Of a DNA stretch of 64,000 nt, positions 2-45,712 are shown in pieces. Position 1 is the stretch's first letter. Each line of letters opens with the position of its first letter. The position numbers and the translations under genes were made by a program. The stretch is from Cellulomonas sp. Y8 (GTDB lineage Bacteria; Actinomycetota; Actinomycetes; Actinomycetales; Cellulomonadaceae), in NCBI RefSeq assembly GCF_008033115.1, contig NZ_CP041203.1, positions 3,782,001 to 3,846,000 on the forward strand, in the 5' to 3' direction. The notes beneath the pieces are model-generated. The model saw only the letters and a list, made by a program, of their open reading frames with translations. It did no database searches and was not told the origin of the DNA.

Positions 2-805
2 GTGACCGGCGCGGGGCCGCCCGGGGACGCGGCGCGGGCGGTGCGCGCCGGGCGGCCGGTGCGCGCCCGGCGGCCGGCGGGAGCACCGCGGCCCAGCGCC
101 GCGAGCGTCCGGCTCGGGCTGCTGTTCGGCCTCGGGTCGGTGTGCTTCGCCGTCGGGTCGCTGCCGCTGTACGCGGCGCGGGTCGCGCCCGCGGTGGCGG
201 CGTGGACGTTCGTGGTCGGGTCGGTGCTGTTCACCTCGGCGGCGGCGTTCCAGGTCGCGGGGACGCCGCGGGACGACCGCCTCGACCGCGCGGCGGCGCT
301 GGTGCAGCTGGTCGGCACGGTGTGCTTCAACGTCAGCACGTACGCGGCGACGCGGGACCTCGCGGCGCCGTCGGCCCGGCGCCTGGTGTGGGCGCCGGAC
401 GTGTACGGGTCGGTGTGCTTCCTCGTGGCGAGCGTCCTAGCTTGCGTGGCCGTGCGGCGAGCGGTGCGGCCGCGGGCGGTGCACGGCGTGCCGGGCTCCG
501 TGCCGGGCTCCGTGCCGGGCACCGCGACGGGCGAGCGGGGCGCGCCGGCGGCGCCGGGCGCGCGGGTCGCGTGGCGGCGCGGGTCCGTCGACTGGTGGGT
601 GGCGGCGCTGAACCTCGCCGGGTCGGTGGCGTTCGGCGCGGCGGCGGTCGCGGCGCGGTACGTCGCGGGCACCACCGAGGAGACGAACGTGGCGCTGGTG
701 AACGCCGGGACGTGCGCGGGGGCGGTGTGCTTCCTCGCCGGCGCGGCGCTGCTGCCGGTGGGGTCGGTCCGCGAGCGGTCGCGCGCCCGCGGCGCTGCTG
801 CGTAG
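2..805 (+). CDS. YrhK-domain-like multi-pass membrane protein (start may lie upstream of window)
   Basis: The frame opens with GTG at base 2 and encodes 267 residues, but it touches the window edge, so the true start may be further upstream. After a basic, Arg/Pro-rich N-terminus there are paired hydrophobic segments at about residues 35-58 and 62-85, two more around 90-155, and two near the C-terminus (about 195-255). The repeated pattern LGSVCF/AGSVAF/GSVCFLVAS resembles the two-helix YrhK domain; that assignment is by pattern only. No catalytic motif is visible, and the function is unknown. Its TAG stop shares bases with the 3' end of the convergent tRNA gene, so no terminator separates the two. 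Confidence 0.6.
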   Translation: MTGAGPPGDAARAVRAGRPVRARRPAGAPRPSAASVRLGLLFGLGSVCFAVGSLPLYAARVAPAVAAWTFVVGSVLFTSAAAFQVAGTPRDDRLDRAAALVQLVGTVCFNVSTYAATRDLAAPSARRLVWAPDVYGSVCFLVASVLACVAVRRAVRPRAVHGVPGSVPGSVPGTATGERGAPAAPGARVAWRRGSVDWWVAALNLAGSVAFGAAAVAARYVAGTTEETNVALVNAGTCAGAVCFLAGAALLPVGSVRERSRARGAAA

Positions 806-876
806 GCCAGGTGGGGCTTGAACCCACGACCGACGGATTATGAGTCCGCTGCTCTGACCGGCTGAGCTACTGGCCC
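803..876 (-). tRNA. tRNA with CAT anticodon (tRNA-Ile2 or elongator tRNA-Met)
   Basis: A 74-nt cloverleaf is readable on the minus strand: acceptor stem GGGCCAG/CTGGCCT (G1-U72 wobble), D arm TAGCTCAG...GAGC, anticodon loop CTCATAA with anticodon CAT at 840-842, T arm GTGGGTTCAAGCCCCAC, discriminator A at 803; CCA is not encoded. CTCATAA loops occur in elongator Met and in lysidine-modified Ile2. The acceptor pairs C4-G69 and C5-G68 are the pairs E. coli TilS uses to recognise tRNA-Ile2, so Ile2 is the likelier identity. The last three bases overlap the TAG stop of the convergent membrane protein gene. Confidence 0.93.
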
Positions 877-8390: not shown

Positions 8391-8463
<73 letters not shown>

Positions 8464-44359: not shown

Positions 44360-44581
44360 AGCGAGCGGCCCCGGCCGCGCGAGCCCGGCGGGCGTGGCGA
44401 GGGTGGTCCGGGCGTCCGCGACGGCCTGCGAGTCCGCCCGCCCGGGTGAACCTGCGCATCGTCCGGCTGACCCCGGTGGCGGTCCCGACGCCGCGCTGGT
44501 AGCCGCGGGCCGGTCGGCACCCGTCCGCGATGTGAACGCGCACACCGCTGACCTGCGGTTCTGTCCGCTCTCGGGTGGTAC

Positions 44582-44609
44582 TTGCCGTTCTGTCCGATTT
44601 CTGTATAGT
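44582..44609 (+). promoter_or_regulatory. Promoter of the riboswitch-bldC transcript
   Basis: TTGCCG (-35, 44582-44587) and TATAGT (-10, 44604-44609) with 16-bp spacing; the -10 is close to consensus. Transcription should start near 44616-44618, directly before the riboswitch. Two direct repeats GTTCTGTCCG (44558-44567 and 44587-44596) flank and overlap the -35 region. Confidence 0.7.
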
Positions 44610-44616
44610 TCTCCTC

Positions 44617-44699
44617 GTTGAGCGACAACGGCAAACCCGCTGCAAGGCGGGGACGCAAAGCCACGGGTCCCAAGGGGACAGCCGGGCTACCGAACCGAC
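44617..44699 (+). promoter_or_regulatory. Cyclic di-GMP-I (GEMM) riboswitch upstream of bldC
   Basis: The conserved GEMM core is present in order: GGCAAACC (44630-44637), a P2 stem CCCGCT/GGCGGG capped by GNRA loop GCAA, GGGACGCAAAGCC (44650-44662), a P3 stem GTCCC/GGGAC, and GCCGGGCTACCGA (44681-44693). Base identities around the core (ACGGCAAA) keep the guanine expected for c-di-GMP rather than the adenine of cGAMP-type variants, judged by alignment to Vc2 from memory. GTTG (44617-44620) can pair with CGAC (44696-44699) to close P1, immediately before the Shine-Dalgarno AGGAG at 44701-44705. No terminator lies between it and the gene, so control of translation is likely. Confidence 0.9.
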
Positions 44700-44710
44700 T
44701 AGGAGTCACC

Positions 44711-44935
44711 ATGACGTACCCCCTCGAGGCCCAGATCCCGACCCAGGCCTCCGCCTCCCTGCTCACGCCGGGTGAGGTCGCGGTCATGTTCCGGGTCGAC
44801 CCGAAGACGGTCACCCGCTGGGCCCAGGCCGGCAAGCTCTCCGCCGTCCGCACCCTCGGCGGCCACCGCCGGTTCCTCGAGTCCGAGGTCATGGAGCTGC
44901 TCGGCGGCGTGCCGCAGCAGGCCGGCCGCCTCTGA
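44711..44935 (+). CDS. bldC: BldC-type MerR-family developmental regulator
   Basis: 74 residues from ATG 44711 with AGGAG five bases upstream. It is nearly the whole BldC signature: LLTPGEVAVMFRVDPKTVTR, then WAQAGKLSAVRTLGGHRRFL, ending with an 'IP/VPQQ'-like tail. BldC is a small winged-HTH protein that binds direct repeats as head-to-tail filaments and controls development timing in Streptomyces. A frame open to TTG 44618 would overlap the riboswitch and is rejected. Translation is expected to respond to c-di-GMP through the upstream riboswitch. Confidence 0.95.
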   Translation: MTYPLEAQIPTQASASLLTPGEVAVMFRVDPKTVTRWAQAGKLSAVRTLGGHRRFLESEVMELLGGVPQQAGRL

Positions 44936-44958
44936 GGCGCAGCACCCCGCAGCATCGC

Positions 44959-44994
44959 GAACGGGCCCCCGAGCACACGCTCGGGGGCCCGTTC
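44959..44994. terminator. Terminator after bldC
   Basis: Perfect 16-bp stem (44959-44974 with 44979-44994), loop ACAC, followed by CGCGTTCC. First of two consecutive palindromes between bldC and the convergent TetR gene. Confidence 0.85.
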
Positions 44995-45024
44995 CGCGTT
45001 CCGGGGAGGACCGACCGCGGGTCG

Positions 45025-45077
45025 GGTGGAAGGTCTGGCCCGACACGCGCGCGGCGTGTCCGGCCAGATGGTCCACC
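45025..45077. terminator. Second, imperfect palindrome between bldC and TetR gene
   Basis: Arms TCTGGCCcGACACGC / GCGTGTCcGGCCAGA pair with one C-C mismatch, extended by GGTGGA/TCCACC after a 3-nt internal loop. It lies 20 nt past the TetR stop on the minus strand, so it probably terminates that operon. Confidence 0.7.
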
Positions 45078-45097
45078 GGACGTGCCCCGCCCGGACC

Positions 45098-45712
45098 TCA
45101 GCCCGGCAGCGGGTCGAGCACCGTCGCCAGGACCGCGCGCCGGACGTCCGCCGCCGGCCGGTCGGGCTGGAACGCCAGCCACTCCAGCCCGGCGACGAGC
45201 GTCGCCCCGAACATCGCCGCGGCGGTGAGCGAGGGGTCCCGGTGCGGCCAGGACGCCTCGACGACCTCGGCGAACACCGCGAACGACTCGTCGCGCACCT
45301 GCCGGATCGAGTCCTGCCAGTCGCGCCCGGTGCGGAACACCTCGGCCACCAGCACCTTCGCGAAGTCGGGGTGCCCCTGGATCTGCGCGAGCAGCTCGTG
45401 CACCAGCGCGCCGACCGCGTCCCGGCCCTCGCGCCCCTCGGCGGCGCCGCGGAGCGCGGTCGTCAGAGCCTGCTGGCCCTCGGTGAGCACGGTCTCGAAC
45501 AGCGCGCCCTTGGACCCGAAGTTGTAGTAGACGCTGCCCTTGGCGACTCCGGCGCGGTCGGCGATGTCGTCGACCGAGGTGGCGGAGAACCCGCGGTCGG
45601 CGATGAGCGCGACGGTCGCCGTGATGATGGCCCGGCGGGTGTCGCGCCGGCCGGTGCCGGGGGAGTCGACGGCCCCGGAGGGCGCGGGGACGGCGTCGGC
45701 GGCGGCTGGCAT
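45098..45712 (-). CDS. TetR-family transcriptional regulator
   Basis: 204 residues from ATG 45712. N-terminal HTH about residues 38-60 ('TSVDDIADRAGVAKGSVYYN' followed by FGSKGALFETVL), then a ligand-binding helical domain with the typical 'LVAGLEWLAFQPDRP' region. Last gene of the three-gene operon with the YhgE-like permease and ABC ATPase, 13 nt after the permease. The palindrome ACTGACTGGTCAGT at 48761-48774 in front of the operon is its probable operator. Confidence 0.92.
   Translation of the reverse strand: MPAAADAVPAPSGAVDSPGTGRRDTRRAIITATVALIADRGFSATSVDDIADRAGVAKGSVYYNFGSKGALFETVLTEGQQALTTALRGAAEGREGRDAVGALVHELLAQIQGHPDFAKVLVAEVFRTGRDWQDSIRQVRDESFAVFAEVVEASWPHRDPSLTAAAMFGATLVAGLEWLAFQPDRPAADVRRAVLATVLDPLPG

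Follow-up and report, generated by a model that had tools for sequence, protein, structure and literature searches.

Class I c-di-GMP riboswitches and the Bld-type regulators of Streptomyces are the described systems closest to the locus reported here. The bases of the class I riboswitch that contact c-di-GMP are given as G20, A47 and C92 in the excerpted text of PMC4744006, where the effect of Vc1, which with Vc2 represents this class in V. cholerae, was tested on GbpA levels. In Streptomyces, c-di-GMP controls the Bld-type regulator BldD, and BldC of S. venezuelae directly activates cdgE, a predicted cyclase gene (both from the excerpt of PMC6428758). BldC contacts DNA through Arg30 and Lys36 (excerpt of PMC5859096); its gene is old in the phylum and has repeatedly been lost, and best hits well below 50% identity may be acquired paralogs (excerpt of PMC4255298). 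The aptamer described below has the contact bases of Vc1 and Vc2, which differ from the present system in host and target, and, as with BldD, c-di-GMP would control a Bld-type regulator. BldD itself is bound as a protein, whereas the control that we propose acts on the mRNA leader of a different regulator family.

The window is the whole stretch of DNA that was analysed, 64,000 nt of Cellulomonas sp. Y8 (G000:C1:3782001-3846000; genome 4.48 Mb, single contig). The genome has two c-di-GMP-I-GGC aptamers, one of them in the window. The features are as follows, in window coordinates except for the last line:

44582-44587, forward strand: -35 element TTGCCG, from the promoter scan (TTGCAC in many relatives)
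44604-44609, forward strand: -10 element TATAGT, from the promoter scan, 16 nt past the -35 element
44617-44620, forward strand: predicted transcription start G44617, placed by its spacing from the -10 element, and 5' strand GUUG of the P1 extension (P1b)
44621-44695, forward strand: c-di-GMP-I-GGC aptamer (RF03167), by Rfam covariance model, contact-base placement and alignment
44696-44699, forward strand: 3' strand CGAC of P1b, ending 1 nt before the Shine-Dalgarno sequence
44701-44705, forward strand: Shine-Dalgarno (SD) sequence AGGAG, read from the sequence
44711-44935, forward strand: BldC-family gene, 74 aa (ATG at 44711, stop at 44933-44935), by NCBIfam NF033787 and structure-chain matches
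44959-44994, forward strand: 16-bp perfect G+C-rich inverted repeat with a loop of 4 and without a T-run, 3' of the stop codon, read from the sequence
G000:C1:2057926-2058001, outside the window: second aptamer (L002, L116), preceding a 56-aa open reading frame

A preliminary description of this DNA had placed all core elements of a GEMM/c-di-GMP-I aptamer between a promoter and the SD of bldC. The covariance models bear this out: the aptamer matches RF03167 over the full model (positions 1-80 of 80) at 71.9 bits (cut-off 59, E 4.7e-15), and the search against the parent model RF01051 that had been proposed as a check gave 69.2 bits, above the cut-off of 35 rather than below threshold. The best Rfam match is therefore the GGC sub-family and not RF01051. 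In a gathering-threshold scan of the whole window it was the sole riboswitch; the Rfam scan also listed two tRNA genes, at 803-876 (reverse strand) and 8391-8463 (forward strand). The aptamer has the P2/P3 architecture and contact bases of RF03167/RF01051 riboswitches. Using a Vc2 sequence that we take to be the correct one for placing the numbering on the leader, G44630, A44657 and C44690 occupy positions G20, A47 and C92, and the interhelical base is C44654. By plain energy folding the leader was no more stable than shuffled sequences (z = -0.46), so the case for the aptamer is made by the covariance model, covariation and conservation. As an RNA, it is an ordinary member of a class that is already known.

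An A at the G20 position marks the class I aptamers that sense cGAMP (GEMM-Ib), and we considered whether this aptamer senses another dinucleotide such as 3',3'-cGAMP. Two leaders, L221 before bldC and L031 before a small-protein gene, do have A at this position, but the window has G44630, and G20, A47 and C92 are conserved in 53, 54 and 53 of 54 bldC leaders, respectively. The genome also encodes many GGDEF and EAL proteins (17 GGDEF matches, two of which are parts of one region, and 11 EAL matches), for which c-di-GMP signalling is to be expected. Hence, we regard a different ligand as very unlikely. One bldC leader, L022, has U at the C92 position; the variant bases in L221, L031 and L022 could reflect a shifted ligand preference or assembly errors.

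We examined the helices in an alignment (A1) of 54 of the 56 distinct bldC leaders, from which L068 and L073 were left out and in which L001 stands for L040. Paired cells amounted to 95.7%; shuffles gave 90.2% (sd 0.4), and sliding the partners gave no more than 41.3%. Seven pairs showed double changes, a number reached in 5 of 500 shuffles, while the slid versions gave at most 3. The three inner pairs of P1b (columns 19-21/100-102) form in all 54 leaders and a fourth pair in 44. The P1 extension is the most telling case. Most rows have GUC/GAC there, whereas the 9 rows of the window's clade have GUUG/CGAC, with both strands changed at two of the three inner pairs (C-G to G-C and G-C to U-A). 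The double changes in P1b stem from this one clade, apart from 4 further rows that contribute at the outermost pair. Since the clade's helix has one pair more, just which bases are exchanged hinges on how the rows are aligned. The Rfam P3 pair at columns 64/89 forms in just 11 of the 54 rows. Taken together, the aptamer helices are supported by covariation, and the P1 extension is kept by paired changes.

The spacing to the gene is kept as well. By script, the SD starts 0 nt after P1b in 29 of the 54 rows, 1 nt after it in 15 and 2 nt after it in 8; the remaining two rows, read by eye, have 0 nt (L022) and 2 nt (L052). A non-functional relic or an independent small RNA is a highly improbable reading of such an element: its geometry to the start codon is kept genus-wide, paired changes occur in P1b, and the aptamer has stayed in place before two target genes that are unrelated to each other.

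Upstream of the aptamer, TTGCCG-16-TATAGT at 44582-44609 was the one sigma-70-like site found in 44450-45100; 50 shuffles gave a mean of 0.0 such sites. From the -10 hexamer to the first base of P1b there are 7 nt in 64 leaders, 8 nt in 11 and 6 nt in 13, as counted by a script that allowed 5-9 nt and scored 88 of 89 leaders (55 bldC and 33 small-protein leaders; L047 was left out). Because of this spacing of 6-8 nt, transcription is predicted to begin at the first P1b base, which gives a leader of 94 nt. Scans and sequence thus agree on the arrangement first described, in which promoter, aptamer, SD and BldC-type gene follow one another with no gene intervening. A TGTCC block 5' of the -10 element (44588-44603 in the window) occurs in 41 of 55 bldC leaders and in 0 of 33 small-protein leaders, and is possibly an operator. 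At the other end, a terminator scan that required a T-run listed none at the locus. The G+C-rich inverted repeat after the stop codon is a possible transcript end, and with it the unit would probably consist of one gene.

We propose that a class I riboswitch controls the BldC-family gene at the mRNA level with c-di-GMP as an OFF signal, a reading to which we give about an even chance. The transcript would begin at the first P1b base, so that the leader is little more than the aptamer. Binding of c-di-GMP would close P1, and the closed, compact fold, flush with the SD, would hinder the 30S subunit; high c-di-GMP would then mean less of the BldC-type protein. With a leader that is essentially the aptamer, control can act solely at ribosome loading or RNA stability. 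Transcription termination was rejected as a candidate, since P1 and the SD have no sequence between them that could accommodate a terminator. Compared with other RF03167/RF01051 loci, the expression platform is reduced to P1 beside the SD. In relatives across the phylum, the SD often directly follows the CCGAA end of the aptamer (read by eye, uncounted), so this placement may be usual for the aptamer there.

Energy calculations bear on the sign of the switch. Closing P1b without ligand has a median cost of 4.7 kcal/mol (range 1.1-9.8; 53 leaders), as expected for a helix that needs its ligand. Scored over an identical set of four SD bases, 52 leaders had an SD accessibility of 0.33 when folding was free and of 0.31 when P1b was closed, and closure lowered it in only 31 of the 52; a looser definition of the SD gave an unpaired probability of 0.44 in the free ensemble (55 leaders). 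As accessibility hardly depends on the state of P1b, neither sign is supported by the energy model. The opposite sign, in which c-di-GMP turns the gene ON, is possible but rather doubtful, and this estimate covers two routes together: the ligand might draw the 5' end into a helix and so protect the RNA from 5'-end-dependent decay, or it might stop the SD region from pairing elsewhere. Transcripts that begin with P1b, as predicted for the 88 scored leaders, suit the first route, and an SD that is mostly paired in the free ensemble (the mean of 0.33 above) suits the second. However, when 55 bldC and 33 small-protein leaders were folded without constraints, no shared ligand-free alternative that hides the SD emerged, and closing P1b does not raise SD accessibility. 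For the OFF reading, hiding of the SD is likewise unsupported by the energies, so steric blocking is the mechanism that remains and the argument for this sign is purely geometric.

We note two further points on folding. In 42 of the 56 bldC leaders, the 5' end can fold into a local hairpin that would compete with P1b. Pairing of the SD within P1 is inconsistent; a version with the SD inside P1 was rejected, because the extra pairs, found in some leaders, need bases 5' of the predicted start. A script that had suggested P1 running into the SD in many leaders was set aside: it missed P1b in 11 bldC rows, yet every aligned row contains the inner pairs.

We turned to the regulated gene. The 74-aa protein scores 101 bits against NCBIfam HTH_BldC NF033787 (cut-off 77), has Pfam matches to HTH_17 and MerR-type domains only, and is a stand-alone winged helix-turn-helix protein without an effector domain. 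It matches the BldC crystal chains 6ama (E 8.1e-25) and 6amk (E 1.7e-24), which we take to be Streptomyces SCO4091. The protein belongs to the same family as Streptomyces BldC and keeps the DNA-contact residues: on what we take to be the matching residue numbers, Arg30 and Lys36 are present in all 27 aptamer-linked rows of our BldC alignment. A regulator with these residues should bind AT-rich direct repeats, and c-di-GMP would in this way be passed on to a transcription network.

The preliminary description had spoken of a riboswitch on bldC. A BldC-type regulator does lie directly downstream, but this gene does not correspond to Streptomyces bldC. A second BldC gene of the genome lies at G000:C1:1473200-1473391; it is 69% identical to the aptamer-linked gene and has no aptamer. 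When flanks were compared, large neighbours of this second copy recurred beside bldC in other Micrococcales genera, whereas none of them, among the matches listed, lay next to the aptamer-linked gene. Matches to glutamine amidotransferase, phosphoribosyltransferase and AIR synthase domains identify the neighbours as PurF and PurM. By tblastn, purM adjoins all 12 close aptamer-free copies in Cellulomonadaceae (one per genome), and purF or purM was found at 0 of 11 aptamer-linked loci with long flanks. In other families, purM is present at 7 of 9 BldC loci; the two that lack it are a 3-kb contig and a second copy in G049. The 44%-identical L312 is outside the purM count. Streptomyces bldC presumably also lies near purF-purM. 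Two genomes of the family without an aptamer-linked bldC, G604 and G470, both draft assemblies, have a single BldC match each, and it is purM-linked.

Synteny with other genera marks the purM-linked copy as the ortholog and the aptamer-linked gene as a paralog, also relative to Streptomyces BldC. A tree of 49 BldC rows, built on only 61 columns, has a branch that separates the 27 aptamer-linked rows from the rest (support 76/82; recovered in 78% of 200 bootstraps). The length of 74 aa, the score over the HTH_BldC cut-off and the strong 6ama match would all suit a riboswitch that controls the true ortholog. Nevertheless, we consider that extremely improbable, as the purF-purM flanks common to other genera belong to the other copy, the aptamer-linked gene shares none of them, and the tree, short as its alignment is, groups the aptamer-linked rows. 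Synteny contradicts the ortholog reading, though gene conversion between copies could blur it. The simplest account is a duplication of bldC in Cellulomonadaceae, with the new copy kept under a riboswitch.

The paralog comparison covered aptamer-linked and purM-linked copies; eleven Cellulomonas genomes (G002, G013, G014, G021, G023, G025, G026, G030, G031, G032 and G034) have three to five BldC-like matches each. In Cellulomonas uda NBRC 3747 (L037), the aptamer-linked bldC lacks an intact frame from the expected start, beside a C run, an apparent frameshift. At L267 (G544:C1:1537443-1537516) the gene behind the aptamer is BldC-like but looks decayed; the same genome has three more BldC genes with an aptamer.

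The arrangement is conserved in the genus. All 36 sampled Cellulomonas genomes have the aptamer before bldC, and the aptamer also precedes a BldC gene in the sister genera g255, g259, g262 (several per genome), g267 and g270. The single genome of g275, with one aptamer, has no BldC gene behind it. In a draw of 200 genomes of the family, 96 had an RF03167 match, across 7 of 25 genera; G604, of the same genus as the window, had none. Matches were found in 44 of 396 genomes (18 of 109 genera) of the order and in 157 of 396 genomes (101 of 237 genera) of the phylum, by which count the aptamer is common in the phylum. A strict aptamer-plus-bldC pattern, defined by an exact codon match to FRVDPKTVTRW (F, R or S in second place) and missing the sister genera, returned 53 loci in genome_contigs, all labelled as Cellulomonas bar one 'Micrococcales' MAG and one with the label Cellulosimicrobium cellulans DE0111. 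A BldC-like motif within about 500 nt behind the aptamer was found at 0 of 42 examined loci outside Cellulomonadaceae (13 from other Micrococcales families and 29 from the phylum draw, a subset of all matches); there, by eye, secreted-type and pilin-like proteins, response regulators and a DUF7793-like protein lie downstream instead. The conservation upstream of bldC that had been put forward as a check on relatives thus holds for the genus and five sister genera and not for Micrococcales in general; among the loci examined it is confined to Cellulomonadaceae.

The second target of the aptamer is an uncharacterised protein of 38-58 aa with a W-x-x-x-A ... P core, found behind it in 35 of 36 genomes of the genus (30 by a strict rule, with G003, G007, G016, G019 and G028 read individually). 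A profile search returned 115 homologs, none with a precomputed Pfam domain and all from Cellulomonas among the matches listed; no Pfam match was found in four sequences scanned. A structure model (mean pLDDT 70.1, pTM 0.31) has helices at 20-33 and 40-47 and is too weak for a fold search.

Other genes also occur behind the aptamer. At L188, L192, L215 and L185 (G008, G011, G006 and G013), a further aptamer precedes a secreted GH26-like protein, assigned by Pfam (GH26 and PKD domains) in L192 only and by likeness in the other three; three of these four aptamers have variant bases in the conserved core. DUF7793-type proteins follow the aptamer at L224 (G035, by Pfam) and L262 (G461, by likeness). 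In the sister genus g262, one aptamer precedes a GGDEF-motif gene (L282 in G544, by eye) and another an EAL gene (L280 in G456, by Pfam), which makes feedback plausible in that genus; no aptamer on a GGDEF or EAL gene was seen in the window's genome.

We found no link between a c-di-GMP riboswitch and BldC in the open-licence literature, and nothing apparently related to a c-di-GMP riboswitch in Cellulomonas. The excerpted texts of PMC4255298, PMC6428758 and PMC5859096 do not mention a riboswitch on bldC, and an excerpt in which the c-di-GMP-I-GGC model occurs gives no more than its name. What appears to be new here is the link to a duplicated BldC regulator together with the predicted parallel control of a small protein. 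On the sequence evidence, the aptamer is real and conserved and its target is unusual, with ligand binding and an effect on expression as predictions. To our knowledge, Cellulomonas does not sporulate.

These results suggest that bldC was duplicated in Cellulomonadaceae and that the new copy came under an old actinobacterial riboswitch, forming an RNA-level regulon in which c-di-GMP would dose a BldC-type regulator and a 38-58-aa protein in parallel; the GGDEF and EAL genes of the sister genus would close a feedback loop. We hold this wider account with middling confidence. If it is true, the arrow would run from c-di-GMP to BldC, as against BldC to cdgE in Streptomyces, and c-di-GMP would have a second, RNA-level entry into a Bld-type regulator beside Streptomyces BldD. 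It would also offer a small testable circuit, consisting of a 94-nt leader and a 74-aa regulator, an unstudied small-protein family under the same predicted control, and insight into how duplicated genes come under riboswitch control.
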